This document shows, in pieces, positions 5,480 to 21,974 of a DNA stretch of 51,338 nt. The stretch's first letter is position 1, and every line of letters starts with the position of its first letter. The notes under the pieces were generated by a model that saw only the letters and a program-made list of their open reading frames with translations, made no database searches and had not been told where the DNA came from. Origin of the DNA: an uncultured Verrucomicrobia subdivision 3 bacterium (GTDB taxonomy: Bacteria; Verrucomicrobiota; Verrucomicrobiia; Limisphaerales; UBA11358); contig CAIKKJ010000185.1 of the NCBI GenBank assembly GCA_903827955.1, positions 1 through 51,338 on the forward strand, given 5' to 3'. Position numbers and translations under genes: made by a program.

Positions 5480-5914
5480 ATGACAAAAAAAAACTGGCTG
5501 CTCATCGTGGCGGTGGCGGCGCTGGCGGTGGTCTATGTGGTTTATTTCACGGACTGGTTCCGGCCCAAGACGGTTCAGATTTTTCACACCAGCCGTAACC
5601 TGCATCCGCGCGCCCTGCGCGGCGGTGCTTTACCCAGCTTGATTTTCGGCATCAACCAGCAGCTCCGGCTCACGGAGCTCAAGGTTGTGACCGTTGCTGA
5701 TTTCCAGACGAACCTGCATCCGCTGCCGTTGTGGCATCTCGTTACGGACTCGAATTCCGTGTCGGTGAAACAGTTCCATTACGGCGAATTCATCGGCGGC
5801 ATGAAGGCCGCGGTCAAGGGTGCCCGTCCGCAGGTGCTCACTACCAACGTCGCTTACAAACTCTTGATTGCCGCCGGCGCGGTCACCGGCCAGCATGATT
5901 TTGAGTTAAAATAA
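5480..5914 (+). CDS. small membrane-anchored protein of unknown function
   Basis: 144 residues. The N-terminus (MTKKNWLLIVAVAALAVVYV) is one membrane helix with positive residues in front, so it is either a signal anchor or an uncleaved signal peptide. A periplasmic-looking soluble domain of about 115 residues follows, with no motif I recognise and no cysteines. It lies between two prepilin-like genes. A link to pilus-like surface structures is possible from the neighbours only. The start ATG is directly preceded by ACAATAATTT; no strong ribosome binding site is visible. Confidence 0.7.
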   Translation: MTKKNWLLIVAVAALAVVYVVYFTDWFRPKTVQIFHTSRNLHPRALRGGALPSLIFGINQQLRLTELKVVTVADFQTNLHPLPLWHLVTDSNSVSVKQFHYGEFIGGMKAAVKGARPQVLTTNVAYKLLIAAGAVTGQHDFELK

Positions 5915-5988
5915 AATTTCTTCGGCTGGCTTGATACTACGACATTTATCGGACAGACAAGGTTGTTCCACTTTGGTAGCCTTGCTCC

Positions 5989-6860
5989 ATGAAACCTCAC
6001 ACTCAGTTCGCGGTAGTCGTGTCGCGTCGCCGTGTCGCCGATGCTTTTACCTTGATAGAGTTGCTCGTCGTCATCGCCATCATCGCCATTTTAGCGGCAA
6101 TGCTCCTGCCTGCGCTGGCCAAGGCAAAGCAGAAAGCTCAGGGCATCAAATGCGTCAATAACCTCCGGCAAATCCAACTCGGTTGGATTATTTATTCCGG
6201 CGATTTTGGCGATCGCATCGCCTTCACCGGAGGTATGGGTCAGACCGCGCAGGCTTTGCTCGATCAGCGCATCAACAACGGCAACTGGGTTCACGGTGCC
6301 ATGAATGTTCCGGGCGCTTCGTCCACCGACCCCGGGCTCGTCAAGGCTGGGTCGCTTTTCCCTTACATCAAGGCCGTGGAGGTTTATAAATGCCCCGCCG
6401 ATATGAAGATGCAACCCAACGCCCTCGGCGTCACGACCCTCACCACCCGCAGTATGAGCATGAACGCTTGGATGAACCCACTCTGGGATAACAACCCAAC
6501 CACCTACGACGGTTGGGGCGGCAGCGGGCTGGCGCACACCTTCAAAAAACAGGCCGACATCCGCACGCCCGTGAATACCTTTGTGGTGATCGACGAATCC
6601 CCGGCAGCATCAATGACGGCTGGTTCATGTGTGACCCTTGGTCCGGCGGCTATCCATCCACAATATGGGTGGACATCCCCGCTTCGTATCACAATCGCGC
6701 CGGTGGTATTTCATTTGCTGATGGCCATGCGCAAATTAAAAGATGGAACGACAGCACAGTAATCAAATACGGGGTGCCAGGCGGTCCAACCGGAGTCAAT
6801 ATTCCGCAAGGCACACCCGCTGGCGATTTGAAATGGCTGCAAGACTTGAGCACCTACTGA
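5989..6860 (+). pseudogene. prepilin-type N-terminal cleavage domain protein, frameshifted
   Basis: The first frame (5989-6762) encodes a prepilin-type protein with the F-T-L-I-E cleavage site and hydrophobic helix ending [15 protein letters not shown], followed by the usual N-N-L-R-Q block. From about 6600 the expected C-terminus continues in another frame: [17 protein letters not shown], then [20 protein letters not shown], the H-X9-DG-like end of this family, stopping at 6860. Adding one C to the four-C run at 6599-6602 joins the frames (E-S-P-G-S-I-N-D-G). It is thus either a recent single-base deletion or a sequencing error in a short homopolymer. As read, the product would be 257 residues with a foreign tail. 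Compare the intact relative at 4634-5407. Confidence 0.82.
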
Positions 6861-6925
6861 TCGTGGCGCTGAAAAATCTTGCCGCTGCTGGAAAATTTTT
6901 CTAGCCTGCCCGTCCGTCAGGAAAC

Positions 6926-7000
6926 GCGCGGTTAGCTCAGTGGTAGAGCATTACCTTCACACGGTAGGGGTCGCAGGTTCGAAACCTGCACCGCGCACCA
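6926..7000 (+). tRNA. tRNA-Val (anticodon CAC)
   Basis: A full cloverleaf can be drawn. The acceptor stem GCGCGGT pairs with ACCGCGC, the D arm is GCTC/GAGC, and the anticodon stem TTACC/GGTAG encloses loop TTCACAC with anticodon CAC. The T arm GCAGG-TTCGAAA-CCTGC follows, and the 3' ACCA end is encoded. CAC reads the valine codon GUG. The split host gene fragment on the minus strand ends two bases beyond its 3' end. The serine-integrase island starts about 165 bases downstream but does not use the tRNA as its target. Confidence 0.96.
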
Positions 7001-7001
7001 T

Positions 7002-7166
7002 CTAAAACTGTCCCTCCTTCTCCTTGAACATCACATTGAACGTCGTCAGCGAGCCATAGCTGCGCGTGATGTATTGCTGCATTTCCACTTTTTCGCCGTC
7101 GGACAATTTTTCATGCGCATTGATCTTCTGCTCCAGCACGCGCAGATTGTTTCTGACCATCACGAT
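7002..7166 (-). pseudogene. 3' end of host SH3-like-domain gene, cut off by island insertion
   Basis: On the minus strand this encodes [18 protein letters not shown]...[17 protein letters not shown] and a TAG stop next to the tRNA. It is the missing C-terminus of the gene whose 5' part lies at 17341-17714. The intact island copy at 16737-17282 contains the same segment in register ([16 protein letters not shown]...NVLFKDKEGQF). Upstream, the reading frame runs into island DNA at the core ACGAT (7162-7166). No promoter or sensible start is visible, so this fragment is very unlikely to be expressed. Confidence 0.88.
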
Positions 7167-7186
7167 TATGTTTCTTGAAAAAACCC
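7141..7186. other. attL-like junction of the serine-integrase island
   Basis: Host gene sequence on the left meets island sequence at ACGAT (7162-7166), the five bases shared with the right junction. The 20 bases after it (7167-7186) are an imperfect inverted copy (15 of 20 by eye) of 17318-17337 at the right end. This is as expected when an attP with inverted half-sites is split by integration. The integrase gene begins 43 bases inside. Confidence 0.8.
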
Positions 7187-7208
7187 GCATATTCTCTAGC
7201 ATTTTGGC

Positions 7209-8804
7209 ATGACAGCCCCGAACGAGACACCCAAAACAACCAAAGCAAACCTCAAAATCTGTTTCTCGTATATCCGGTTTAGCAGCGGCAAGCAAGCCAA
7301 GGGCAACAGCACAGACCGCCAGCTTGAAATCGCTCCACGAGTAGCGCGGGAAAAAGGCTGGGAATTGGACGAAAATCTTTCCATCGCAGACTTGGGGCTT
7401 TCCGCCTTCAATAAGGCCAACTTGGGGTCAAAGGGAAAACTTGGCGCGGTGCTGACTGGCGTTCAAACAGGGAAGATTCCCAAAGGCTGTATTGTGATTG
7501 TTGAAGCTCTGGACAGGTTGACCCGCGCAGAACTGGACACCGCATACGATTTATTCCGCGACTTGCTACGGGCGGGGCTGGAAATCTATGTGGACAAGGG
7601 CGGCAGACACTATACCAAAGACAGCCTCAAAAATCCGATTGACCTGCTGATTGCCATTGTGGAATTGAACGCGGCAAACGAATTCTCGGCAAAGCTCGCA
7701 GACCGCGTTGGCAAGGCATGGCGCAAGAAGCGTGAGCGACTTGCAGAAAGTGGCGAACGATTGACCAAGCGCGCCGTCGGCTGGATTGACAATCAAACGT
7801 GGAAACCAATCAGCGAGCGGGTTCGCATCGTGAAGCGGATTTTCAAGCTGTATGACGAAGGCCACGGCATTTCAAAGATTGTGCGACAACTCAATCAGGA
7901 AAAAGTTTCGACATGGGGAGATAAGCGCAACGACAAGCAAGGCGACTGGAATTCGTCTTACGTTTCGCAGCTTCTTCATACCCGCGCCGTGATTGGTGAA
8001 TTTCAACCGCACGTTTGCCAGAGCGCAGATTCAGGCAGCTACTACCGCAGAACCAAGGCTGGTGAGCCAATCGAAAACTACTACCCCGCCATTGTCAGCA
8101 GGGATTTGTTTTTTCGTGTTCAAGGCAAACTTGGCAATGGCAAGAAGGCCGCAAAGACAGACCGCATTGGAAATCTCTTTTCTGGTGTCGCCTACTGCGA
8201 GTGCGGCGCGAAAATGTATATGGTCAACAGCAACAAGAAAGGCGCAGCGCGAAGGTATTACACCTGCTGGGGCAAACTCAAAGGGCTTGGCTGTAAAGCG
8301 CCTTCCATGCAATACGAGCCGATTGAGCTTTTCTTTTTGAAACTGGTGGGGGACAACGCGCACAAGTTTTTTGACGACGAAAACGGCGTTGCCGAGCGTG
8401 TGCAAACATTGAATGGAAAACTCAAAGAAGTTGAACGCCAGATTGAGAGAATCACCGAAGCCGTGCTTGGGGCTGGCGTCAATCCCGCTGCCTTGGCAAA
8501 AAAACAAGAACAGCTTGAACGCGAAGCCGACAGACTCAAAGACGAAATGGAAATCACGGAATCCAAAATCACCGCGAAGCAAAAAATGGCGGCAACCGAA
8601 TTTGTTTCAATGACCTTGGCCGACCTGTCGAAAAACATGAATGTTCGCAGACAGGTGAGGGAATTTGTTCTCGCCAACGTGGAACGCATGACCTTCGACA
8701 AAGCCAGAGACAAGGTTGGTGTTCAGTTCAAATCGGAAAACGTCGGAAAACTCGCGCACAAAATGTTGAAGAACGGGTCAAAACAAAAAACCGCAGACAA
8801 ATAA
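7209..8804 (+). CDS. large serine recombinase (integrase of the island)
   Basis: 531 residues. An N-terminal resolvase domain (about residues 17-165) has the catalytic motif YIRFSSGKQ, with nucleophile Ser25 by alignment to Y-x-R-x-S. The recombinase domain follows (around residues 190-300, including the family pattern where [16 protein letters not shown] replaces an arm of the DNA-binding region). A zinc ribbon lies near 330-365 (CECGAKMY ... CWGK ... C). A long coiled coil rich in Glu/Lys and a basic tail complete the protein. This is the layout of phage-type serine integrases, which recombine attP and attB through a two-base crossover. The gene starts just inside the left junction, the usual place for an integrase, and all key parts are present. 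Confidence 0.92.
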
Positions 8805-8891
8805 TCGGCGTAACCAGACCACGCGTTTTTCAATTTTGTTGCCTCCAGCACTGAATGTCTTACGATTCGCGCAAAGAAACCTGTTTGACCT

Positions 8892-9404
8892 ATGGCTTTT
8901 GAATCACTCACCGACGAGCGCATTGAAGCGCTTTTGCGGATGCCGAAACGCATCACCAATCCGACGGCGAGAAAAGTCCAAGACGCAAACCATGACAAAA
9001 TGGATTACGTTCTACAGAGCGACGATGGGGCAGAACGATTCAAATTGTTTGTGCGGCAGAGCAAGACCGTCACGGATGATTTTTCGTGCGGCTTGATTTG
9101 GCTACCAGCGGGCGGAGAGAGTTTGATTCTGGCTCGTTACAACGGAAGCAGTCACGAGCATCCAAACCACTTGGAGCAAACTAAAATTAGCTTTGCCTGC
9201 CACATTCACCAAGCGACGGAGCGATACATTCAGGCGAACTTAAAGCCGGAGAGTTTTGCAGCAGAGACAACGGCATATCAAACGTGCAACGGGGCTTTGC
9301 ACGAGCTTTGCGTGGATTGCAGCATCACCGGCATTGATACCCTAGCCGACCACCCAGAATTGCGGTTTGAATCGGGAGAGCGGAACATCACGCTTGAACT
9401 GTGA
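8892..9404 (+). CDS. hypothetical island protein paired with a DUF1828/1829 gene
   Basis: 170 residues, soluble. Starts MAFESLTDERIEALL and contains an HEHPNHLE stretch and several scattered Cys and His residues (ACHIHQ, CNGALHELCVDC). I do not recognise a catalytic motif. It is separated by three bases from the next gene, so the two are probably translated together. Genes of this type are seen next to DUF1828-containing proteins in mobile regions, which hints at a two-part defence or toxin-antitoxin unit; that is inference. Start chosen at the ATG of a frame that stays open and ends within three bases of its partner. Confidence 0.65.
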   Translation: MAFESLTDERIEALLRMPKRITNPTARKVQDANHDKMDYVLQSDDGAERFKLFVRQSKTVTDDFSCGLIWLPAGGESLILARYNGSSHEHPNHLEQTKISFACHIHQATERYIQANLKPESFAAETTAYQTCNGALHELCVDCSITGIDTLADHPELRFESGERNITLEL

Positions 9405-9407
9405 ATC

Positions 9408-10199
9408 ATGAGTTTTGACTTAAAATTATTGCAAGAGCAGCTTTGCAAAACGCTTTGCGGACAAGTGCAAATCCGCACCACCAAGCAAGGCCATTTGCAA
9501 CTTATCACGCCGTTCACATTTTTTGACGGCGACACTTTCCAGCTCTACCTACAAGAAATGCCCGGCGGCGGACTCCGTTTGACGGATTACGGACACACCT
9601 TGATGCACTTGAGCTACGAAAACGAAATCTCAAAATTGCGTGAAGGCACACGAGGAAAACTTTTTGAACAAGTGTTGGCGACTTCTGGAATCAAAGAACA
9701 AGACGGCCAACTTATCTGTGATGCGTCAGTTGAGAATTTGGGGAGCAGCGTCCTGAAATTTGGTCAAGGGATAACTCGCGTCTATGACCTGACGTTCCTG
9801 AATCGCTCGCGTGTGGCGAGCACGTTCTACGAAGATTTGAAAGAGCGGCTTTACGGCTTGGTTTCCCCCGACAGAATTCGCCAAAATTTTTCGTTGGCGG
9901 AAGAGGATGCGGCAAGTTATCCGATTGATTTTTGCATCACGCGGAAACAGTCGCCGCTTTTCTTGTTTGGCATTGCCAGCGTGGATAAAGCACGGCTCGT
10001 AACAATCATTCTTGAGCATTGGTTAAGGGCGAAAGTTGAGTTTGATTCCCTGCTCATTTTCCAAAACCAGCCTGATATTCCGCGCAGCGATTTGGCCCGG
10101 CTTTCCAATGTCGGCGGACAGATGGTTGCATCGCTTGATGCGTCGGAAGACTTTCAACGCAAGGTGCTCAAACTGGCAAACCAGTTTGAAAATAACTGA
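9408..10199 (+). CDS. DUF1828 and DUF1829 domain protein
   Basis: 263 residues. The N-terminal half (about 20-110) has the DUF1828 pattern, including TPFTFFDGDTFQLYL and GGGLRLTDYGHTLMHLSY. The C-terminal half fits DUF1829, with ITRVYDLTFLNRSR followed by a possible nuclease-like core IDFCITRKQSPLFLFGI. Both domains are of unknown function and are found mainly on mobile DNA, often with a small partner gene, as here (8892-9404). It starts with ATG preceded by GTGAATC right after the partner's stop. A defence or regulatory role is plausible but not shown by the sequence. Confidence 0.78.
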   Translation: MSFDLKLLQEQLCKTLCGQVQIRTTKQGHLQLITPFTFFDGDTFQLYLQEMPGGGLRLTDYGHTLMHLSYENEISKLREGTRGKLFEQVLATSGIKEQDGQLICDASVENLGSSVLKFGQGITRVYDLTFLNRSRVASTFYEDLKERLYGLVSPDRIRQNFSLAEEDAASYPIDFCITRKQSPLFLFGIASVDKARLVTIILEHWLRAKVEFDSLLIFQNQPDIPRSDLARLSNVGGQMVASLDASEDFQRKVLKLANQFENN

Positions 10200-10330
10200 C
10201 TAGCGTGCCAGAACACCAAGTTGACGTTGCGGCAGAACTATTCGTTGCGTCTCTGCTATTGTTGTGGTGAATCCTAATTCGCAGGCTGGCAAACACGTTT
10301 TCAACTTGCATAGTTTCCAATCACCGCAGC

Positions 10331-11353
10331 CTACACCAAAGCCAACAAATCTTTTTCAATCCCCTGCCAATCTTGGTTTAGATTTATCGTGCGGATGCTG
10401 ATTTTGTGCTTTTTGTCCATGAAATCAACAGACAGTGGCGAATCAACAGTTGGATAGAGCAGCATCATCTCACAAGTTTCAGTTAGTTTTCCCTCCGGCA
10501 AGTTTGTGAGGTAGGCGTTGATTTGAAAAAGATGCGCCGAGCGGAGGGTCTCGGCTTCGTAATGGTGTTGCGTAGCCTCCGGTGTAAATTTGCAGTCGAT
10601 GATGATTTTCCGGGTCGCCGAGGTAAGGCTGATGTCGGTCTGCATTTTGGGCAGCAACCCCGCAGCAACTTGGTCGGCAGCAATCCAACGCCAATAAATA
10701 TCCTCACGCTTGACCTTGTAATCCGTGTGGACTCGATAAAAAGTGCGAACGAAGCTCTCAAAGAGAATCGCCATCTGCCGCTTGTCGCGGATAAAATCCA
10801 TAAACTTGCTGTTCCCCGACTTCTCTGAGACGAGCAGATTGCGGTGAATGAGTTCACACACTTTCAGAAGAAAATCATAGAACTGATTGTTCCGGTGGAG
10901 TTGAACTCGGCCAAAGACACGACTAGTGAGTTCAATGTCCTCAATGTCAGAAAACCGACGATATAAGTGAGAAAGACTTTCGGTGGATTCTCTAGCCAAA
11001 TCCTGGGAGCGAATCAACCGCCGCATTGTTGCTTTCAAGATTTGGTTGTGCAGGACATTGTAGCTCAGTTCGTCAAACTCGCAGGGAAGGCTGCTTGTTC
11101 GGGTTGCGTTTGTTCGGATAGCCTCCTGAAAGCATATCCGTCCACGTAGTCGCCCCGTCCATTCGTGATGTGGAACGTAGCCACGGTCGAACCCGCGTTT
11201 CAACAAATGATTCGTGCCATTGATTAGCACACGGGCAAACAAATCTGCCAGATTGGTCGAGTCGAGTGGCTCTACGTCAACAATCTCCTTTTCATCAAGC
11301 TTGTCCCAAGCGTAGCAAAGAAGATAATAAACATTCTGGATTGGGATATTCAC
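10331..11353 (-). CDS. mcrC: McrC, 5-methylcytosine restriction nuclease subunit
   Basis: 340 residues. Opens with IPIQNVYYLLCYAWDKL, the typical McrC start. The C-terminal third holds a PD-(D/E)xK nuclease core: MQTDISL followed by KIIIDCKF (Asp ... Asp-x-Lys) around residues 240-260, with LFQINAYL after it. In McrBC systems McrC is the nuclease that cuts modified DNA when driven by the McrB GTPase ring in the cytosol. The gene begins seven bases after the mcrB stop on the same strand, so they form an operon. Length is normal and the active site looks complete. Confidence 0.9.
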   Translation of the reverse strand: MNIPIQNVYYLLCYAWDKLDEKEIVDVEPLDSTNLADLFARVLINGTNHLLKRGFDRGYVPHHEWTGRLRGRICFQEAIRTNATRTSSLPCEFDELSYNVLHNQILKATMRRLIRSQDLARESTESLSHLYRRFSDIEDIELTSRVFGRVQLHRNNQFYDFLLKVCELIHRNLLVSEKSGNSKFMDFIRDKRQMAILFESFVRTFYRVHTDYKVKREDIYWRWIAADQVAAGLLPKMQTDISLTSATRKIIIDCKFTPEATQHHYEAETLRSAHLFQINAYLTNLPEGKLTETCEMMLLYPTVDSPLSVDFMDKKHKISIRTINLNQDWQGIEKDLLALV

Positions 11354-11360
11354 GAATCGT

Positions 11361-14060
11361 TTATGCGAGCAGAGCGGAGCGTTGCTCTTTCACCTTTTGC
11401 TCGTTGTCGAACCAGTATTCCTGAATCAGTGGCAAGATTTCTGAATCAATCACTCGGCGATACCAATTTTCGTCCGGATTTATTCCTTTCCTTGGGCAAA
11501 AATAGCTGTGACCAATCTGGTAGCCTGTGCCAAGGTTTTTTGTATCTGCCGCAATCACTTCGTTTAGTGAATTCATTCGGCTGACGATTTTCTTGGTCAG
11601 CTCAGGAGTCGCACCTGCGGTGGCGAGAAACTTTCCGAACCCATCGCTACCAAACTCTGGACGCAATGTGATGAAACGGAATCTACGTCGCAAGGCATAG
11701 TCCACCATCGCGAGCGAACGGTCTGCGGTGTTCATCATCCCAATGAGGTGCAAATTCTCAGGAATGTAAAATCTCTCAGTATTATTTTGAGAATATGCCA
11801 GCGGGATTGCGTGTTCTTTTCCGCGCTTATCTGGTTCAACCAACATCATCAACTCACCGAAAATTTTGCTCAGGTTGCCTCGGTTGATTTCGTCAATGAT
11901 AAACACGTAGGGCTTCTTTGCAGCTTCATCTCGTTGTGCTCTGCGACAGAATTGGTAAAAGATTCCAAACTTCAAATCAAAGTGACCATTTGGGTTTGGT
12001 CTAAAACCTTGAATGAAATCCTCGTAAGAATATGACTGGTGGAACTGGATAGTCTCTATCTGACGTTGGTTGTTTGACTCGATAAGCGCGTATGCCAGAC
12101 GCTTTGCCACAAAAGTTTTTCCAACACCCGGAGCACCTTGGAGCACGACATTTTTCTTTTCCTTCAAGGCTTCAAGCATTTCGTCAAACTGTGGCTCTCC
12201 AAGGAATAGTCCATCCATTGCTTTCAGTTTGTCGTAGTGCTCAAGATTATCTTGTGGCGTTATGCTCACACCGTCATTGCCTTCGGAACCGGTAGTTTGC
12301 AAATCCAACCCAACCTTGGCTGCAATCAAAGCAACAAAATCACCATAGGCCGTAACGTCCGTAAGCGTCTTTATCGCCATCTTTTCATCCGCTGGCATTT
12401 CCCACTGGCCTTTTGCAATCCACTTCACCTTGCGCACGTGCTTGTAATTTGCTCGCGTGTCGTCAAATTCGTAACCGCCATCTTCTACAACGCCAAACCC
12501 CAAAAGTTTTGTGGAACCCTGCTTGGCAAAAATGATGTCGCCAGAATTTATGTCGTGAGCAAATTGCCAACAGGCGTGAACATCGTTTTTCTTGTCTGAA
12601 TCGCTTGGCCAAAGTTGTTGGAGTTTCTGGCGTATGTCGTCTTTGTTTTTGAATAAACGCAAGTCTCCCATTTTATCCCAACCGATTGCCATAATTCCAT
12701 TTTGGTAAAATTCCTCCCAGCTTTCAGCATCTTCCCCGGGTGAGAATGTCCAATACTTGCAATTCGAGTCTGGCATCTTGGCTACAACTTGACTGGCTAA
12801 TTGTTCCTGCTTGGCCATGCGGAAGAGCGGAAACAATCGTTCAAACAAATCGGCAATTTTTTCAGCCAACTCATCTCCCGACATCAAAACCGCTTTTTCA
12901 ATCGAGATATAAGTTTTGGCTGTAGGCCCGTATTGACCGATATTCTTTATCCATTCCTCCAGTGACTTTGTTTGGCCCGCGCCTAGCTTCATCAAAGAAT
13001 ATCCGTCATCTTGCTCGCCATAAACAATTTCACAGGAAGCTAGACTGAGGCTCAACTTCGCCATGAGGTCTGCTGGCATCGCTTTTAAATTGGATGCAAA
13101 CATTTCTCGCGCTCCTTTGCCATAATCAGCGATAGAAAATCCATACTTTAAGCCCTCGCGATTTACTGTGACGTATAGCTGTCCATCATCTATCCGCCTT
13201 CCTCCTTTGGGATAAAATGCACCCCATAAGAAATCCCATGCTCCGCCACGTCCGTAATCATTCTTCGGTATGCGTGAGAGAATTCTGTTTTCCATCTCTA
13301 GCAATTCAGTCATCTGGCTCGGCAGTCGCTCGCCAATTCTTTGAAATAAATCAGCAAGCGGGGTTTCAAGGTGAGTCTTGAACTCATTTTTGTGCTCTTG
13401 ATAAAAAATCTGCGTCGGCTGCTCATGGAGCGATTTAAGCAACTGAAATGTCTTCTCTGAAAAAAACGGGGTGACGCTCGTCTTGTCATGCAGGTGCAAT
13501 GCCGGCTTTGTCATACTTGCATATAGATTCGAGTTGGTTAAAGGGAGGTGATTACCCGTCTTTGCTGTATAAACTTCGTCCAGAATGGTAATTAACGCTG
13601 GGGGAGCGATTGTTAAATACGCTCCCTGTCGGAGCTCTAGTCTCGAATCAAAAAACAGCGAATCGTTGTTTGCGGCAATTTCTTTAAGGCGGGTTCGGTA
13701 TTCGGGTTTGTCCAGATAATCTGTGCGGTTAATTTGTTGGGGAAGTTTTGTGAAACTTTTTAACCGAATGAAATAAGCGGGTTTTCCAGCCGGCCACTGC
13801 GTTCCGTTTGGCACAACGTGTGAATCGTCGCGTTCCTCGGCCACCAAAGAAACTGCGACAATCGCGTTCCTGTCAATCAAGTGAAAGACGACATCTCCCG
13901 GCTTAACATCTCTCATCAAACGATAGGTGTCTCGCCCGTCGCTTCCACTTTGAGGCGACCATAGGGCTGAGCCAAAAGCAAACTCCCCTTGCTCTCGGTC
14001 TGGCCTCCCGGCTACGTATGTTTTTTCAACCCAGAATTGCATGAGCGCATCATGTGACAA
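11361..14060 (-). CDS. mcrB: McrB-type AAA+ GTPase with long N-terminal recognition region
   Basis: 899 residues. The motor sits at about 625-880: Walker A GAPGVGKT near 640, Walker B YVFIIDEINRG near 720, and MMNTADRSLAMVDYALRRRF as sensor and arginine region. MNTADRS is the McrB-specific GTP-binding motif. In front lie an N-terminal PUA/EVE-like domain (about 8-160, FWVEKTYVAG and PGDVVFHLID), a DUF2461-like middle region (about 195-330), and a second EVE-like module (430-560, YWTFSPGED and GIMAIGWDKMGDL). EVE-like folds read modified bases, so this protein likely detects modified phage DNA and activates McrC. The double recognition layout is longer than classical E. coli McrB (about 460 residues). 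Confidence 0.9.
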   Translation of the reverse strand: MSHDALMQFWVEKTYVAGRPDREQGEFAFGSALWSPQSGSDGRDTYRLMRDVKPGDVVFHLIDRNAIVAVSLVAEERDDSHVVPNGTQWPAGKPAYFIRLKSFTKLPQQINRTDYLDKPEYRTRLKEIAANNDSLFFDSRLELRQGAYLTIAPPALITILDEVYTAKTGNHLPLTNSNLYASMTKPALHLHDKTSVTPFFSEKTFQLLKSLHEQPTQIFYQEHKNEFKTHLETPLADLFQRIGERLPSQMTELLEMENRILSRIPKNDYGRGGAWDFLWGAFYPKGGRRIDDGQLYVTVNREGLKYGFSIADYGKGAREMFASNLKAMPADLMAKLSLSLASCEIVYGEQDDGYSLMKLGAGQTKSLEEWIKNIGQYGPTAKTYISIEKAVLMSGDELAEKIADLFERLFPLFRMAKQEQLASQVVAKMPDSNCKYWTFSPGEDAESWEEFYQNGIMAIGWDKMGDLRLFKNKDDIRQKLQQLWPSDSDKKNDVHACWQFAHDINSGDIIFAKQGSTKLLGFGVVEDGGYEFDDTRANYKHVRKVKWIAKGQWEMPADEKMAIKTLTDVTAYGDFVALIAAKVGLDLQTTGSEGNDGVSITPQDNLEHYDKLKAMDGLFLGEPQFDEMLEALKEKKNVVLQGAPGVGKTFVAKRLAYALIESNNQRQIETIQFHQSYSYEDFIQGFRPNPNGHFDLKFGIFYQFCRRAQRDEAAKKPYVFIIDEINRGNLSKIFGELMMLVEPDKRGKEHAIPLAYSQNNTERFYIPENLHLIGMMNTADRSLAMVDYALRRRFRFITLRPEFGSDGFGKFLATAGATPELTKKIVSRMNSLNEVIAADTKNLGTGYQIGHSYFCPRKGINPDENWYRRVIDSEILPLIQEYWFDNEQKVKEQRSALLA

Positions 14061-14111
14061 TCGCTCACAGATTCCAAACCGAATTTGGAAAGCCTATTGG
14101 CAGAGGCCAAT

Positions 14112-14858
14112 TTAAATCACGAAATCCTCGCAGACCGGCGCGACAGTGACAGGTTGCAGTTGCGGGATTGCTTCTTGCGGCATTACGCATGGCCTCACGC
14201 GCTTTCGGTGCATCTTGCTACGGTGAAGACAAAGCAAATTTGAATCCGGTTCCATGCGTTGAAAATTTAGCAGTTCGTAAAATCTCACCAGCTTTGTCGT
14301 GCCGTGCTTCGTTAGCTTCTCGCGCCAGTCACGCCTTTGGCGCACCGGCCATTGATTCGCCATTGCCTCTCCAAACAACGTGGACACGTTGAACTCCTTC
14401 AAATCAAAAATCGTTTTCGCAAAGCGATTGAGAATCAGGTCTTGCGCGTTGTAAAAATTTCCTTGTCTGCTTGGGAAAACAAAGACAATCAAAATGTGAC
14501 ACATCCCGGAGTCCTTCCCAAAAAAATCAAAATCTATGTAGCCGCCGTTTTTGTCCGACTGAAAACGATAGACTGTCCCTGTCGAGTAAGTCAGAAATCC
14601 CGTCGGATACTGCCCCGTGGTTTTCAAAAGTTTTAAGCCTGCCCCGTTGCGCTCGTTTGATGCAAGCAGGGCGTCAGTCATTGCGTCGCTGCCACGCGTT
14701 GCGGCATCGTCGGCTTTGAAGGTGTAAAGCATACGGCGTCCGAACAATTCAACGTGCGGTTGAATCGCTGATAACGCCGCTTGGTTGACCGCGCCAATGC
14801 GCGGCATGGAGCGCAGAAACAAATTGTGCTGGTGAAACGTGGAATCGCCGAAACTCAT
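14112..14858 (-). CDS. hypothetical protein upstream of mcrB
   Basis: 248 residues, soluble. Starts MSFGDSTFHQHNLFLRSMPR. I recognise no known domain. The middle contains an aromatic, Gly-rich part (GGYIDFDFFGKDSG) and the C-terminus is rich in Pro and Cys. It ends 51 bases before mcrB and shares its strand, so it probably belongs to the same transcript and may be an accessory factor of the restriction system. The frame is long and continuous, but without homology its reality rests on length and position. An internal start at Met18 is possible. Confidence 0.55.
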   Translation of the reverse strand: MSFGDSTFHQHNLFLRSMPRIGAVNQAALSAIQPHVELFGRRMLYTFKADDAATRGSDAMTDALLASNERNGAGLKLLKTTGQYPTGFLTYSTGTVYRFQSDKNGGYIDFDFFGKDSGMCHILIVFVFPSRQGNFYNAQDLILNRFAKTIFDLKEFNVSTLFGEAMANQWPVRQRRDWREKLTKHGTTKLVRFYELLNFQRMEPDSNLLCLHRSKMHRKRVRPCVMPQEAIPQLQPVTVAPVCEDFVI

Positions 14859-15121
14859 AATCCAAAATCCTTTCTCGCCTTAAAAAAATCGCGGAACTCA
14901 CTCTTGGCTAAAAAAATTTTACCAAGAATTGTGACAAGAAGGCTTTCTTGACGAACCTTGCAAACCGGCATTGCGAAGCAGTTGAAATTGAAAACATGAT
15001 TCGCCCCGCGCCGATTAACCCCGCCGCGAAAAATCATTCGGCAGTCAAGTCTCCGGCTTAAATTGCCTGCGACTTGCACGGCAGGAATAGTGTTACGTTG
15101 AACCGTGTCATTGACCGACAA
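14855..15121 (-). CDS. possible small gene, doubtful
   Basis: 88 codons beginning MSVNDTVQRN, overlapping the start of the next gene by four bases (ATGA). That overlap is the only support. The product is rich in Arg and Cys, with no recognisable motif, and could be a chance frame. If real, it would be the first gene of the mcrBC transcript. Confidence 0.25.
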   Translation of the reverse strand: MSVNDTVQRNTIPAVQVAGNLSRRLDCRMIFRGGVNRRGANHVFNFNCFAMPVCKVRQESLLVTILGKIFLAKSEFRDFFKARKDFGL

Positions 15122-15425
15122 CGCCCCCAGAACTTTTCAATGTAAAAGTCTGGGAGGCTTGGCAACCTTGTGACAGGCGGAGAAAGAACCGTTAAAACTC
15201 CTTTGATGCCTAGCCGTTCCTTGCGGAACTCGTCGGGGCGTGACTCACTTCTTCAGTGACTTTTTTGACTCTTGGCCGTCTTCCTTGTTGCGTGTTCCGT
15301 TCTGCCTACGGACTCTCCCGCGATGGGGCAACTTGGCAAACCTTTTCCGGTTTCTCTCGGCAGGCTAAAAGGCGACACCGCCATTTTTGTTTCCAATAGG
15401 TTGACTCCGCTCGCTGGCGGAAAAT
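15122..15425. other. non-coding stretch with hairpins upstream of the mcrBC group
   Basis: No convincing gene. A strong hairpin lies at 15126-15154: CCCAG and ACTTTT pair with AAAAGT and CTGGG around loop CAATGT, with one bulged A. A weaker stem TCACT/AGTGA at 15245-15259 is followed by a run of T on the plus strand (CTTTTTTG), as in a short terminator. The region could hold a small RNA or a leader for the downstream operon; neither can be shown from sequence alone. Confidence 0.4.
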
Positions 15426-15800
15426 TCAATTTTTCTGCTGGGCGCTCTGCCACAGCGGTAAAACCGCGCCACCGTTACGCGAGCTGATGACGTAATCCTT
15501 GCGTTTGTGCAAATAGTTCGCAGCTTGGTATTCTCGAAATTTTGAACCAGCAAATTTCTTTATCAAAGTCGGCGGCATAGATTGTTTCACGGCCATTTCG
15601 TAAAACGCATCTGCGGAAAAAATTTCCCCTCGGTTAATCAGTGCAAACATGATGTTGTCCGCGACAACGCTCCACTCGCCACTCGTTTTCATAATTTCAT
15701 CCATACCGTTAATTACACCAAATTTAACCCTACCAACCCGACTTTTTAATTGTTGAAATCCCTTTCGCCCTGTTTTCGTGTAAAACAGTTTTTTAGCCAC
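15426..15800 (-). CDS. hypothetical island protein
   Basis: 124 residues, basic and soluble, beginning MAKKLFYTKTGRKGFQQLK. It has a helical middle (GEIFSADAFYEMAVKQSMPP) and a C-terminus with several Arg and Lys residues, suggesting contact with nucleic acid. No family recognised. It is on the same strand as the mcrBC group but separated by about 300 bases, so it may have its own promoter. Composition is normal for a protein and unlike the shadow frames nearby. Confidence 0.6.
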   Translation of the reverse strand: MAKKLFYTKTGRKGFQQLKSRVGRVKFGVINGMDEIMKTSGEWSVVADNIMFALINRGEIFSADAFYEMAVKQSMPPTLIKKFAGSKFREYQAANYLHKRKDYVISSRNGGAVLPLWQSAQQKN

Positions 15801-16074
15801 CCCCCGCCCCTAGCGCGCTGGCAGCTTTGGGAATTTTTTCAAAATTAGGGTAGCCACCCCACCCGCGCCAAATCATGCTTTTCCAGTTCGCCAAAATAAA
15901 TTGAAATAAAATTCCCCGCCGCAAAGACATAACCACAAAGGCAACTGGCAAGGGGTGGTTTTGTATCTGCAAGGCGGGAAAATGCCAGTTTGAAAGACCG
16001 ACAAACAAAAAATGTCATACCTAAACGAACCTTTAGGATTGACAATACGGTGTTTTTTGGGTAGTCATGTCCCC
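15801..16074. other. intergenic region between divergent island genes
   Basis: About 270 bases between the hypothetical gene and the small recombinase. TAGCCACCCC occurs twice (near 15796 and 15851). A TTGACA lies at 16039-16044, about 17 bases before a weak TAGTCA, which would place transcription very close to the recombinase ATG. A promoter pair for the two divergent genes is expected here, but I cannot define it with confidence. Confidence 0.35.
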
Positions 16075-16734
16075 ATGAAAACACGCTTCGTCAGCTACTA
16101 CAGAGTTTCAACGGACAAACAAGGGCTTCAAGGGAACGGCATAGAGGCGCAGAAACAGTCTGTGGCGCGTTATCTCGCCTCTTTGGACTGCGAACACCTT
16201 GGCAGCTTTGAGGAAGTCGAGAGCGGGGCAAACAACCGCCGTCCTATGCTTAAAGCCGCGATGCAACTCGCCAAGAGCAAAAAGGCTATCCTACTCATTG
16301 CCAAACTCGACAGGTTGAGCCGAAATGCTGCTTTCCTGCTCCAGTTGCAGGACAGTGGCGTGGACTTCGTAGCTTGCGATATGCCGAACGCTGACAAGTT
16401 GAGCGTGGGAATCATCGCATTGCTGGCACAACGCGAGCGTGAACTGATTTCGGAGCGCACAAAGGCCGGTCTAGCCGTCGCAAAATCCCGTGGTTCAAAG
16501 CTGGGCAATCCGAATCCCGAATCGGCATTGCAGAAGGCGCAGCAAGTCATTCAAGAGCGGAAACAGGACTTTGCACAAGCCGCGCTTAAATCCATCCGTG
16601 AGATTCAGGAAACGGGCATTGCGACCCTTAATCGGATTGCTGACTGCATGAACAAGCGCGGGGAGAAAACGCCGCGTGGCGGATTGTGGACAGCAACAGC
16701 GGTAAAGCGGGTTTTGGCTACAAGCGCGGCCTAA
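16075..16734 (+). CDS. small serine recombinase (resolvase/invertase family)
   Basis: 219 residues. A resolvase-type catalytic domain spans about 3-140: YYRVSTDKQ (nucleophile Ser12), then LLIAKLDRLSRNAAF and the ERTKAGL region. The C-terminus has a helix-turn-helix-like segment (ATLNRIADCMNKRGEKTPRGG) and lacks the zinc ribbon and coiled coil of the integrase at 7209. I chose the ATG at 16075 because the homology begins at once, rather than an in-frame start 21 codons upstream. It may resolve dimers, invert DNA or be a remnant of another element. It converges with the replacement host-gene copy; the stops are two bases apart. Confidence 0.88.
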   Translation: MKTRFVSYYRVSTDKQGLQGNGIEAQKQSVARYLASLDCEHLGSFEEVESGANNRRPMLKAAMQLAKSKKAILLIAKLDRLSRNAAFLLQLQDSGVDFVACDMPNADKLSVGIIALLAQRERELISERTKAGLAVAKSRGSKLGNPNPESALQKAQQVIQERKQDFAQAALKSIREIQETGIATLNRIADCMNKRGEKTPRGGLWTATAVKRVLATSAA

Positions 16735-16736
16735 TG

Positions 16737-17282
16737 CTATTCGGCCTTTGAAGAAAACTGCCCTTCCTTGTCTTTGAACAGCACGTTGAAGGTTGTAAGC
16801 GAGCCGTAGCAGCGGGAAATGTATTGTTGCATCTCAACCTTGTCCCCGTCAGTGAGCGCGGCGTGAGCATTGATTTTTTGCTCCAATACGCGCAACTGAT
16901 TCCTGACGCCGACTACCTTGTGAAAAAACACTTCCAGCGGCACTTCCTTTGTTTGCAGGGTAGGGTCTGACGGATGCAAAACCACTTTGCCTTTGTGCCA
17001 ACGTGCGCCTAGTTCGGAAACAACCGCGTCCGGCTTTTCCACACCAAGCCGTTCAATAACTTTTTCGATTGTGGACTCCACAAAATCTTTCAACGGTTGC
17101 TCCAAGCCAGTTACTTTGATGTTTGGCTCTGCCGGTTCAAGACCGCTCAAGTCTGGTTCAACCGTGCGGACGGCATCGTTGAATCGTATCTCGGCGGTTT
17201 GCTCGGAAATTGTTTTGACCGTGCCTAGGCCGTATTGCGGATGCCTGACAGACAAGCCAACGGTAAGAGTTTGGATTTTCAT
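16737..17282 (-). CDS. island-borne intact copy of the split host gene (SH3-like domain protein)
   Basis: 181 residues. An SH3/CarD-like beta-barrel N-terminus reads LSVRHPQYGLGTVKTIS and AEIRFNDAVRTVEP. A linker region follows (GLEQPLKDFVESTIEKV) and then a conserved helical C-terminus ([34 protein letters not shown]). It aligns end to end with the host gene broken by the island: N-terminal part at 17341-17714, C-terminal part at 7002-7166. It lies in the same direction, 12 bases behind the stop of the broken 5' part, so the host gene's promoter could transcribe it. Function is unknown; the fold suggests a DNA- or RNA polymerase-binding factor. Confidence 0.85.
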   Translation of the reverse strand: MKIQTLTVGLSVRHPQYGLGTVKTISEQTAEIRFNDAVRTVEPDLSGLEPAEPNIKVTGLEQPLKDFVESTIEKVIERLGVEKPDAVVSELGARWHKGKVVLHPSDPTLQTKEVPLEVFFHKVVGVRNQLRVLEQKINAHAALTDGDKVEMQQYISRCYGSLTTFNVLFKDKEGQFSSKAE

Positions 17283-17294
17283 GGGCAGAATGTA

Positions 17295-17714
17295 TCAAAT
17301 TTGCTGGGGTTTTAGTTGGGTTTTTCCTGAAAACAAAATTACGATCTTGTGAAAAAAAACTTCCAGCGGCACTTCTTTCGTTTGCAACGTCGCCTCGGCT
17401 GGATGCAGAACCAATTTGCCGCCGTGCCAGCGCAGGCCAAGTTGTTCCACGACTGAATCCGGTTTCTCCAAGCCGAGTTTGGCGACCGCGGCGGCGAGCG
17501 TTTCCTCGACAAATTGTTTCAACGGCAAATCCAGTCCGCTTACGGTGGCGTGCGGTTCGGCAGGTTCCAGACCGGCGGCGTCCGGGGCGACGGCGCGCTT
17601 GCTGCCATCGTCGAACAGGATTTCTGCCACCGCCTCGGAAATGGTTTTGACCGTGCCGGTGCCGTATTGGGGATGGCGCACCTTGAGGCCGATGCGCAGT
17701 GAATCGATTTTCAT
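17295..17714 (-). pseudogene. 5' part of the split host SH3-like-domain gene
   Basis: Starts MKIDSLRIGLKVRHPQYGTG and matches the intact island copy through LEVFFHKIV (host sequence ends at 17341). It then runs for about 14 foreign codons of island DNA (ILFSGKTQLKPQQI) to a stop at 17295. The lost C-terminus is at 7002-7166. The SH3-like barrel and linker remain, so a truncated 139-residue protein may still be made from the original promoter. The intact copy follows 12 bases later on the same strand. Confidence 0.87.
17318..17345. other. attR-like junction of the serine-integrase island
   Basis: The island's last 23 bases (17318-17340, beginning GGGTTTTTCCTGAAAACA) lead into ACGAT (17341-17345), after which host gene sequence resumes. 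Joined to the left end they form a 48-base near-palindrome whose centre falls on the AC of ACGAT. That matches an attP with inverted half-sites around a two-base crossover. Confidence 0.8.
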
Positions 17715-18588: not shown

Positions 18589-19224
18589 ATGCCCGCCAAA
18601 TTCACCAACTCTTTTGACTTCGAGCGTCCGCTTTGGCAGCAGGGCATCGCGCGCGTCGCGGGCGTGGACGAAGCCGGACGCGGGCCGCTCGCCGGACCGG
18701 TCGTGGCAGCGGCGGCAATTTTGCCGTCGCGCTGGGCGGAAAACGGTTTGCCCGCCGCGCTCGCTGGCTTGAACGATTCCAAACAACTCACCGAAACGCA
18801 GCGCGAAACCTTTTTCCAATTCATCACCACCTGCGGCGAAATCGAATTCGGCATCGCCGAGATCAGCGCGGCGGTGATTGACGAAATAAATATTTTGCAG
18901 GCCACGCATCGCGCGATGAACGACGCGCTGGGGAAATTAAATCCGCTCCCGCCGCACGCGCTCGTGGATGGTCGTCCGGTCAAAACCTTGCGCGTGCCGC
19001 AGACCGCCATCGTCAAGGGCGATGCGCGCAGCTATTCCATCGCCGCCGCGAGCGTCCTCGCCAAAGTCACGCGCGACCGGCTGATGCTGGCGTATGCCGC
19101 GCAGTTTCCCGCCTACGGTTTTGCGGAACACAAAGGCTATGGCACGGCCAAACATCTCGCGGCGATTGCGAAACACGGCGCGTGTCCAATTCACCGTCTG
19201 ACGTTCGCGCCGCTGAAAAAATGA
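18589..19224 (+). CDS. rnhB: ribonuclease HII
   Basis: 211 residues. It cuts RNA in RNA-DNA hybrids and single ribonucleotides in DNA. GVDEAGRGPLAGPVVAAA supplies the Asp-Glu of the active site (around residues 24-30). LNDSKQLT and the GDARSYSIAAASVLAKVTRD region follow, as in RNase HII. The start at 18589 (ACCATGCCC) avoids overlap with the sulfotransferase stop. It ends in an ATGA overlap with yraN, the common rnhB-yraN order in bacteria. All key motifs are present. Confidence 0.95.
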   Translation: MPAKFTNSFDFERPLWQQGIARVAGVDEAGRGPLAGPVVAAAAILPSRWAENGLPAALAGLNDSKQLTETQRETFFQFITTCGEIEFGIAEISAAVIDEINILQATHRAMNDALGKLNPLPPHALVDGRPVKTLRVPQTAIVKGDARSYSIAAASVLAKVTRDRLMLAYAAQFPAYGFAEHKGYGTAKHLAAIAKHGACPIHRLTFAPLKK

Positions 19225-19649
19225 ATCTGCTGGAAAAGTTCAAAGCCAAGTTTTTCGGCAAGGCCAAGCCGGAGCATTTGCGGCGCGGTGAATTAGGCGA
19301 GCGTGCCGCGAAAAAGTTTCTGCAAGCGCAGGGGCTGAAGTTTCTCGCGGCTAATTTCCGTTCCGAGCGCGGGGAGATTGATCTGATTTTCCGCGACGGT
19401 GATTGCCTAGTTTTCATTGAAGTTAAGACAAGGTCTTCTGAGGTATGGACTCGTCCAGCATCGGCAGTAGATGCGAGGAAGCGGAAATTACTATCACAGA
19501 CGGCACTGGATTATTTGAAGCTGCTTAAATACCCCAAAGTGAAGTTCCGTTTTGACATCGTGGAGGTATTGCTGAAGGACGGTCAGGTTTCGGAAATCCG
19601 GCATCTGCCGAACACGTTTTCATTGAGCAAGCCCTATCGCTACGGTTAA
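19221..19649 (+). CDS. yraN: YraN family nuclease-like protein, host 5' part fused to element-borne 3' part
   Basis: 142 residues of the UPF0102/YraN family, a predicted PD-(D/E)xK nuclease-fold protein: LGERAAKKFL, then GEIDLIFRDGD and LVFIEVKTRS (Asp ... Glu-x-Lys core). Codons up to Asp at 19401-19403 are GC-rich like rnhB, with which it overlaps (ATGA). From TGC at 19404 on, the codons are AT-rich (for example GTTTTCATTGAAGTTAAG) and nearly identical to the second copy at 21681. The original GC-rich 3' end is displaced to 22853-23098. I infer that an IS630-like element inserted after the Asp codon and restored the gene with its own 3' end. The protein looks complete. Confidence 0.9.
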   Translation: MNLLEKFKAKFFGKAKPEHLRRGELGERAAKKFLQAQGLKFLAANFRSERGEIDLIFRDGDCLVFIEVKTRSSEVWTRPASAVDARKRKLLSQTALDYLKLLKYPKVKFRFDIVEVLLKDGQVSEIRHLPNTFSLSKPYRYG

Positions 19650-19697
19650 ACATAGCTAGCAATCTTTCGTGCAGCCCTGTAATTAAAGTCAATCTCT

Positions 19698-21266
19698 CTA
19701 GCGTGACCACTTTGGGTCTTTGCAGTTCTGGTCCTCTGCAAACACGGAAGGCACACGCTCATGTCCCCAGATTTTATTGCCTGCCCTCTTTGGATTGCTC
19801 TGAAAGAATATATTTCGCTCTTGAAAGTAGCGGTCTATCGCAGCCTTGGCGTCGTCTTCAGACTGGTAATCACTATTGTGAATAATCGCTTTAGCCATGC
19901 CGCTAAATACGGATTCAATCACATTGAGGAACTGCGCTGATGCCGGCAACGGCACGAGTTCAATTAAAGGCATATTGTTCCCTGCTGCCGCCATTGCATT
20001 GTGGTATTTGACTATTTCGTAAAGCTTCTCGGATGCGTGCCAAGACGCAGCATCCCACGAAACATATAGCTTCTTGCATTGACCATATTGTTCAACCAGC
20101 ACCTCTAACAGCTTGATCATTTCCACTGTGTTCTTCTTTTTTGAGTAAAAGTGCGTGACCTGGTTGCGGGACAGTTCCAAAGCCGCTGTAACAATGAGCC
20201 ATCCTTTAGATTTTTGAAACTGTGCAACACTGGGATATTCACCTGGGGCGACAAGCTGCTTGCCAGCCTTCTTCTTCAAAGCAAATGGACCAAATTCATC
20301 AATAGAAAAGAACCGCTCATCCCGTCCAAGAGTGGACAGAATTCCCTTGAGATGCTCCAGCTTTTCGCGGTATTCGGGGTCGTTACTGGTCAGCACGACC
20401 TTTGCCTGCCGCCATCTGAACCCTGCTGATTTGACTATCTCACGCAGTGTGTCCTTGTTCGACGCGTATCCCTGCATACGAAGGCAACGCAGAAGGTCAT
20501 CCCACTTCCATGAGGTGCGATTGATGCCATGAGCTGACGGAGGTGAATGTAGCAACGATAAAAAGACTGACCGAAACACCCCATTCTCAGCCTGTTTCGG
20601 GCGACTTTTTCTATTGAATAGCTCAGAAGAACCGCCGGCTTGGAATTTCCCCCAATAATCTTGAATAGCATGATCTGAACTCTTAAAGAAGCGGCAGATT
20701 GACCTCGATGAAATCCCTTTAAGTTTTGCTAGCACCACAACCGCCTTCTTTCGCTCTGCCAATGAACCCGACCATGCCTTCTTCGCAATTAGTTGAAGCT
20801 CTGAATTGTGCCCGCATTCACCTTGGATAGAGGAGAAACTTAATTTCTTCTGCATAACGAGTTGCATCCACTGATGATTTTCCGAATCGGGGTTGTGGAA
20901 CTTGGATGATGTGTCGGGTGGTGCAAAGCCACTCTCTAATAATAGGCGTGTGAGACTACGGAGATCTGCAACTGGCACAGCACTTCGTGGAATTACCTGT
21001 ATCATGTCACGAATGAACGCGACCGAGTCGATGATCTTGTCCTTAATATCGGTCGCAATGTCTTCTTGTTTTGAAATTACTATTCGAAGACGCTTTGGTC
21101 GTGTTTGCCGCTTCTTGCGATTGAACTTTGGTGGGAACGGGTGTTTGAGTATTTTCTCAAGCGTGCTCCAATGAATGCCTGCGTCTCGCGCTGCCTGACG
21201 CTTGGACACCCCGCCTTTGAGCACTTGTGCGCGAATAAACCGCCAGCGAATGATGTCTTTGAACAT
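19698..21266 (-). CDS. IS630-family-like DDE transposase (intact)
   Basis: 522 residues. N-terminal helix-turn-helix region (SKRQAARDAGIHWSTLEKIL), then a second HTH-like block around 180-260, then an IS630/Tc1-like DDE domain. First Asp in FFSIDEFGPFALKKKAG near residue 322, second in YVSWDAASWH near 401, Glu in FLNVIESVFSG near 450. The usual LPxYSPxLNPIE loop appears here as LPASAQFLNVIES. At over 500 residues it is longer than typical IS630 transposases (about 340) because of the N-terminal extension. It is transcribed toward the yraN 3' end. A truncated relative lies at 21975-22586. Confidence 0.88.
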   Translation of the reverse strand: MFKDIIRWRFIRAQVLKGGVSKRQAARDAGIHWSTLEKILKHPFPPKFNRKKRQTRPKRLRIVISKQEDIATDIKDKIIDSVAFIRDMIQVIPRSAVPVADLRSLTRLLLESGFAPPDTSSKFHNPDSENHQWMQLVMQKKLSFSSIQGECGHNSELQLIAKKAWSGSLAERKKAVVVLAKLKGISSRSICRFFKSSDHAIQDYWGKFQAGGSSELFNRKSRPKQAENGVFRSVFLSLLHSPPSAHGINRTSWKWDDLLRCLRMQGYASNKDTLREIVKSAGFRWRQAKVVLTSNDPEYREKLEHLKGILSTLGRDERFFSIDEFGPFALKKKAGKQLVAPGEYPSVAQFQKSKGWLIVTAALELSRNQVTHFYSKKKNTVEMIKLLEVLVEQYGQCKKLYVSWDAASWHASEKLYEIVKYHNAMAAAGNNMPLIELVPLPASAQFLNVIESVFSGMAKAIIHNSDYQSEDDAKAAIDRYFQERNIFFQSNPKRAGNKIWGHERVPSVFAEDQNCKDPKWSR

Positions 21267-21273
21267 AAAGGAA

Positions 21274-21361
21274 ACAATACGCCACTATAAACATTTCGCA
21301 GCGATATGTGGTTTTACACGCTTTATCCGCCGGGTAAATATTTAGTCGAAATGGAACAAAC
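21274..21361. repeat. right end of the yraN-inserting element, copy 1
   Basis: About 88 bases from ACAATAC to GAACAAAC, lying upstream of the intact transposase. It shares the skeleton ATAAACATTTCGC, GGTTTTACAC and AAATGNAACAAAC with 22764-22852. The bases right after it (TGGCTGGTATTTGAAGC) look like a decayed form of the element's left end TGCCTAGTTTTCATTGAAG, as if another copy had been joined there. Confidence 0.7.
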
Positions 21362-21428
21362 TGGCTGGTATTTGAAGCAATCAATAAGGTTACTAGACTG
21401 ACTAAAGCTAACGGCTAGAAGATGACTT

Positions 21429-21434
21429 TATAAT
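21429..21434 (+). promoter_or_regulatory. possible -10 box upstream of second yraN
   Basis: A perfect TATAAT lies 21 bases before the ATG of the second yraN. No good -35 is seen at the proper distance, so this is only a candidate. Confidence 0.35.
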
Positions 21435-21455
21435 GCTTTAACCTACAAGTGGCAG

Positions 21456-21926: not shown

Positions 21927-21974
21927 ACATAGCTAGCAACCTTTCATGCAGGGCTGTAATTAAAGTCAATCTCT

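Follow-up and report, generated by a model that had tools for sequence, protein, structure and literature searches.

A probable self-rescuing integrative island that splits a conserved gene and carries a homologue of it in Limisphaerales bacteria

How can a mobile element afford to land in the middle of a conserved protein-coding gene? The question is raised by contig CAIKKJ010000185.1 of an uncultured Verrucomicrobia subdivision 3 bacterium of the order Limisphaerales (assembly GCA_903827955.1), which we analyzed at its full length of 51,338 nt and refer to as the window. A native gene of 177 codons on its minus strand is interrupted after FFHKIV by an island of the large-serine-integrase type (7002-17714 region, with about 10.2 kb between the junctions), and just inside one end this island carries a full-length homologue of the gene that it breaks, hereafter the spare. 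Our analysis suggests that the element is probably a self-rescuing integrative island, in which the spare would stand in for the gene lost upon integration.

A preliminary description, made from the letters of the window alone, had proposed that a serine-integrase island splits a host gene at ACGAT, and the junctions bear this out. The core ATCGT (minus strand; ACGAT on the plus strand) stands at both borders, at 17345-17341 and 7166-7162, and joining the flanks at this core yields AAG ATC GT/G ATG (slash, junction), a single frame that reads ...FFHKIV/MVRNN... and encodes 177 aa. In the window, the truncated frame continues for 14 codons beyond the hybrid codon before it meets a stop. The spare begins 12 nt after that stop in the same direction, and its placement at 16737-17282 in the preliminary description was correct. 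The GC content of the island (0.485) is lower than that of the left flank (0.566) and of the DNA just to the right (0.597). The entire genome (3.86 Mb in 213 contigs, one of which is the window in full) holds three matches to the gene, exactly these three pieces.

Uninterrupted loci in relatives revealed which of the pieces is the newcomer. The gene is present in 45 of the 49 genomes of the family, a set that includes the window's own genome (G000) and carries a single genus label throughout; it is split in two of them (G000 and G005), represented only by a copy of another lineage in four, and of the native type in 39. On the stretches examined, rnhB was located in 21 of the 39 native loci and was divergent and upstream in all 21, while tRNA-Val(cac) lay less than 600 nt from the 3' end in six of the 39 and was convergent, as in the window, in five. 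Both flanks surround an uninterrupted gene in four genomes of the same genus (L065, L069, L081, and L090), relatives of the kind that the preliminary description had called for. Because native loci show an uninterrupted gene between rnhB and tRNA-Val, the two fragments once formed a single native gene, and it is the island copy that arrived later; the reverse, a native island copy with foreign fragments, is excluded by synteny together with the trees described below.

The arrangement is not confined to the window. Searching the family, named genomes, and the 320 genomes of the order, we identified this junction, again enclosing a homologue, in four of the 320, representing three families. The earlier expectation that related islands at this gene would carry its copy thus gained three more elements, with the reservation that in one of them, G108, only the first 103 codons of the copy lie on the contig. 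In G005, a member of the same genus, an element of 1.1 kb with att (attachment site) arms occupies the same codon and stands whole on one contig (L063:3140-4240), carrying a spare 33 nt behind the truncated stop and an open reading frame (ORF) of 139 aa. This short element is perhaps non-autonomous or a reduced island. In G164 (family f46), the spare lies 12 nt behind the stop and is followed by a PIN-domain protein, the whole beside rnhB-yraN; the 3' part was not found, the island being cut by the contig end. In G108 (family f20), one contig holds the 5' part, a 208-aa ORF, and the beginning of the spare, and a second holds the 3' part, an integrase (57-59% identical), and a small recombinase (53% identical). 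Three attP sites could be rebuilt from these elements, all of them dyads centered on GT with 17, 15, and 16 matches of 23, scores that were each reached by at most 1 in 10,000 of the shuffled sequences (20,000 shuffles); the reconstructed attP of the window is an imperfect dyad of this type. The contig of G002 (L064:10259) ends at the crossover codon, in CACAAAATCGTG, and that of G289 (L170:8326) ends at the same codon in a different sequence, as if assembly had broken at an island present in part of the population. These are possible further islands and were left out of the count of four.

The spare is of foreign origin and belongs to a lineage of its own. In a tree of 79 rows, the four spares fell within a 17-row clade (support 100/92) together with 13 copies from other genomes, four of which belong to the window's genus. 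The host genes of G000 and G005 fell in a 46-row clade drawn mostly from that genus, and those of G164 and G108 lay outside both clades. The position of the G108 spare is unsure because this sequence is partial and long-branched. An origin of the spare as a duplicate of the host gene was rejected by the approximately unbiased (AU) test, which did not accept the spare and its own host gene as one clade (p = 1.4e-5 for G000, 2e-12 for G005, and 0.009 for G164; 29/79 rows). For the spares alone as one clade, the test gave p = 0.069 on 72 rows and 0.025 on 29 rows. A phage or plasmid origin was also rejected, as no relatives of the spare appeared in viral contigs, plasmids, or phages at the sensitivity of those searches. 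The spare retains its full length and the invariant columns of the alignment, and its dN/dS is 0.05-0.10 against same-lineage copies in other genomes, with dS near saturation and one comparison saturated; judged by its codons, the spare is under constraint. The four spares have a GC content at third codon positions of 0.45-0.57, compared with a range of 0.60-0.87 for 38 native genes and of 0.60-0.80 for 12 spare-lineage copies outside islands. Because the spares lie below both groups, their island-like composition points to a long stay on mobile DNA and away from a recent capture.

The spare also lacks the core at which its host gene was cut. At the crossover, ATCGTGATG occurs in 14 of 38 native genes and the wider ATYGT in 28 of them, and ATCGTGATG is found in the attB of the three hosts for which both halves are available. 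The three full-length spares have GTAGTCGGC, GTTGTCGGC, and CTGATTGGC at this position, none keeping ATCGTGATG or ATYGT, and that of G164 is altered even at the central dinucleotide. Among the 12 spare-lineage copies elsewhere, four keep ATYGT and none has ATCGTGATG.

The spare may have a promoter of its own. A -10-like TANNNT ends 6-7 nt before the ATG in 29 of 39 native genes, as expected for leaderless mRNAs, and at this native spacing the spares of G000, G005, and G164 present TACATT, TACATT, and TACCAT, respectively. Because three spares have their own -10-like box at the native spacing, read-through from the host promoter is possible and not required; the earlier proposal that the original promoter can drive the replacement is thereby kept as one possible route. 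In several of the genus's native genes (e.g., L077 and L078), repeated ATCCGTGTNCATCCGTGG words were also seen upstream of the -10-like box and may represent a promoter-associated repeat.

The target gene matched no Pfam or NCBIfam family, and a profile search with it gave a best E of 0.056. Its predicted fold (pLDDT 78, pTM 0.38) best matched the C-terminal Tudor domain of UvrD/PcrA (7egt_B; E 1.6e-3, probability 1.00, TM by target 0.90), the high-probability matches being restricted to the N-terminal domain and none falling below E 0.001. The model thus points to a UvrD-C-terminal-like Tudor domain followed by a helical domain, and in it the cut would interrupt the long helix that opens the C-terminal half. 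Additional copies of the gene were noticed in three genomes. G123 (L169:5856-7351) has an intact target gene and, about 750 nt downstream in the same direction, a second C-terminal fragment (residues 104-176), and G087 (C79/C182) and G157 (C121/C155) each have two full copies on separate contigs.

We propose that the large serine integrase, whose activity is predicted, uses the dyad GGGTTTTT...ATCGT...AAAAACCC as its attP and recombines it with an attB lying within coding sequence, midway through the conserved Tudor-domain gene, and that integration breaks this gene. The site would be affordable to the element through the complete homologue of another lineage that lies just inside the attR end, oriented as the broken gene is. 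Equipped with its own -10-like box, the spare would be expressed and take over the lost function, a substitution that we infer. With GTAGTCGGC or a similar sequence in place of ATCGTGATG, it should be a poor target for the integrase because its core differs from that of the native gene, which would protect it. Homologous recombination between the spare and the fragments should likewise be inefficient because the spare shares only 61-66% DNA identity with the native gene over the 5' part. Precise excision would restore the native gene.

Several observations weigh against this proposal. The target gene is not universal, and rescue is perhaps unneeded: it is present in 214 of the 320 genomes of the order (114 of 154 among the more complete ones), and G014, at 94% completeness, has both rnhB and yraN but lacks the gene. 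Because it is absent from some near-complete genomes such as G014, the gene appears to be useful rather than indispensable, which softens the earlier implication that it is important to the host. The G005 element, although whole, shows no integrase, and neither does the G164 island as far as the contig end. Only two of the 320 genomes (G000 and G108) yielded a close integrase relative, and beyond the order the window's own genome stood alone among 387 sampled genomes of the phylum at E 1e-80, both searches having scored only the best few candidates per genome. The G108 spare is partial (103 codons to the contig end), sits on a long branch behind the extra 208-aa ORF, and has no -10-like box, and no sequence joins the two G108 contigs. 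The attR pattern matches only the four junctions in the 320 genomes with one mismatch allowed, and its reversed control matches nothing there, but it was built from the very junctions that it then matched. Similarly, three of four spares with a box is a result reached by only 2 of 20,000 shuffled sets, but the motif was chosen after looking and the score covers the -10 box alone, without a -35. Finally, the central GT is kept in two spares, in which only the flanks have changed.

A wider claim can be built on the proposal, namely that the element is a natural home-and-rescue element whose att-proof rescue gene is a long-lived mobile lineage, left behind as the sole copy after island decay and displacing the native gene in members scattered across the order. 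We regard this as tentative and somewhat doubtful. Spare-lineage copies outside recognized islands are scattered over families f1, f26, and f59, none of them was seen within 1.5 kb of rnhB in the nine genomes where rnhB was located, and their neighbors differ (for example, a gmhA-like gene in G033 and G047 versus genes for hypothetical proteins in G118). In G118 (L203:7489-7656, C178), a decayed, inverted C-terminal fragment of the native type lies just upstream of the one complete copy in the genome, a member of the spare lineage. This fragment starts at about the crossover codon (E 1.6e-8) and was seen beside one of 12 such copies; in 46 masked native controls, the best neighboring match had an E of 0.056, and a 47th control (L094), which was unmasked and matched its own gene, is not counted.

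The homologue could instead be ordinary cargo that serves the island, for example as a Tudor-domain partner of RNA polymerase or UvrB, with loss of the host gene simply tolerated. The near-complete genomes that lack the gene (G014, with rnhB and yraN in place) are compatible with such tolerance, as are a fold match limited to the N-terminal, UvrD-type Tudor domain and the ORF that separates the junction from the homologue in G108. We nevertheless consider this explanation unlikely, since all four junctions carry a homologue of exactly the gene that is broken, on the attR side and in the same direction. Moreover, the spare has kept its full length and its invariant columns, and a spare-lineage copy is the sole copy found in G033, G047, G025, and G024.

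Regulated gene integrity, in which the island acts as an off-switch until excision and the homologue is incidental, has even less to recommend it. Targets of such islands include sigK, comK, yifB, and others. In favor of an off-switch, the gene here is truly broken, attP contains no replacement segment, and neither the G000 nor the G005 5' fragment shows decay, with dN/dS of 0.14-0.19 against native genes. A pure off-switch is nonetheless very unlikely because the homologue lies inside the junction in all four cases. A second island in the same genus provides a comparison: in G047 (L137:5643-13950, C59), comM (yifB), a known target of regulated-gene-integrity islands, is split after GKTTI by an island with a small recombinase 77% identical to that of the window, a distant integrase (28-30%), and a DNA adenine methylase-like ORF. 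No second comM was found in G047, the C-terminal part being the sole match in the genome. This island brings no substitute, which fits the notion that islands retain a substitute only when losing the target gene carries a cost, as far as a single case can indicate. Phage WO of the sr1 type also uses a magnesium chelatase gene (PMC9203015).

That the fragments are foreign, or that the arrangement is an artifact of binning or assembly, is scarcely credible even for fragmented genomes (25 of the 26 named records are titled metagenome-assembled genomes, and G108 is on two contigs), because the whole arrangement stands on single contigs in the window and in G005, the fragments of both group with the native genes of the genus beside native neighbors, and the junction is common to four genomes.

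The remaining features are those of a large-serine-integrase island, with the expected integrase domains, a short core, a dyad attP, the integrase at attL, and empty sites in relatives (Table 1). Against viral contigs, the integrase yielded no confirmed relative; against phages, 76 records matched, all below 60% identity, with 28% the best among the matches listed. The cargo includes a candidate defense pair by PADLOC models and an McrBC-type pair, in which the McrB-type AAA protein adjoins McrC; a PADLOC search gave no match for the McrC-like protein. No relaxase or conjugation gene scored above the Pfam cut-off in the eight island ORFs scanned besides the spare, shorter ORFs being outside the scan. 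Beyond the island, two yraN genes lie beside transposase-like ORFs (one of 522 aa and a shorter relative) at 19182-22586 of the window and make up the neighboring yraN element.

Table 1. Features of the island and its host gene, in positions of the window; the last row refers to locus L137 of G047.
Feature	Position	Strand	Remarks
3' part of split host gene	7002..7166	-	ATCGT core to stop; 7161-7002 beyond core
attL	7162..7186	-	island arm GGGTTTTT-15 nt-GT with ATCGT core
Large serine integrase	7209..8804	+	Pfam Resolvase, Recombinase, and Zn-ribbon domains; adjoins attL
Cargo DUF6978, candidate defense PDC-M24A (PADLOC model)	8892..9404	+	
Cargo DUF1828, candidate defense PDC-M24B (PADLOC model)	9408..10199	+	
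Cargo McrC-like	10331..11353	-	Pfam PF10117; NCBIfam McrC 344.9 bits, cut-off 338
Cargo McrB-like AAA protein, 899 aa	11361..14060	-	McrB model matched below curated cut-off
Cargo ORF	14112..14858	-	no family above a cut-off
Cargo ORF	15426..15800	-	no family above a cut-off
Small serine recombinase, resolvase type	16012..16734	+	convergent with spare
Spare full-length homologue, 181 aa	16737..17282	-	without att core; adjoins attR
-10-like box TACATT	17289..17294	-	ends 6 nt before spare ATG
attR	17318..17351	-	CACAAGATCGT, then island arm ending in AAAAACCC
5' part of split host gene	17341..17714	-	124 codons and two bases; open frame extends into island to 17295
comM pieces of G047	C-part 5643-7025; N-part about 13950-13760	-	

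Set beside published systems, as the available excerpts of the cited papers describe them, the element resembles islands whose attP restores the target gene (icd, tRNA genes; PMC10111431, PMC12884075) in entering a conserved gene site-specifically with its function kept, which here would be the work of the spare. Unlike those islands, its end shares only the short core with the target, attP holds no replacement coding sequence, and a whole second gene would do the repair. Similar to islands under the concept of regulated gene integrity (PMC10111431), it inactivates a protein gene by integrating within it, but unlike them it supplies a full homologue, which was present in all four islands found. 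Serine-recombinase integrative and mobilizable elements of Firmicutes (rumA and others; PMC5704250) share with it the serine recombinase, a site in a coding gene, and a very short core; their targets are called dispensable by the authors, and the excerpts describe no replacement. No mobilization gene was recognized among the scanned ORFs of the window's island.

The idea of an island encoding a homologue of its own target is already in print. A search for such islands led to 11capE, a helper-embedded phage-inducible chromosomal island in Escherichia coli NRG857c that disrupts a late capsid gene of a phage and brings along a capsid gene of its own that has diverged at the att region (PMC10111431). 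Both traits recur here, where the island lies in the gene that it disrupts and carries a further member of the same gene family, again with divergence at the att site. Unlike 11capE, a satellite in a phage gene, the present element has a chromosomal target, the one complete integrase is of the large serine type, three of the four spares start 12-33 nt after the end of the truncated frame, the elements span three families, and the spares come from a separate lineage. In the literature searched, as far as the available excerpts extend, 11capE is the sole island described with a homologue of its target (PMC10111431), and earlier chromosomal cases may exist. Within that literature, the combination of a chromosomal gene, a serine integrase, and a spare placed immediately after the truncated gene (in three of the four cases) is apparently new, as are the recurrence in three families and a rescue copy whose lineage is separate and apparently mobile.

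Should the substitution prove real, the element would represent a further way of affording a conserved coding gene as a landing site, through an integration-proof substitute and neither by rebuilding the target through attP nor by using it as a switch. It would also give mobile elements a route for swapping versions of a conserved gene and constitute a testable natural counterpart of engineered cleave-and-rescue elements; the locus additionally yields a large serine integrase candidate whose attP and attB sites are predicted. Synthetic home-and-rescue and cleave-and-rescue drives disrupt a gene and carry a recoded copy that is immune to their own enzyme. The likeness, a disrupted gene and a resistant copy carried along, is one of analogy only: unlike the synthetic drives, the element described here is natural and bacterial, and it enters its target by site-specific integration, without homing through repair.

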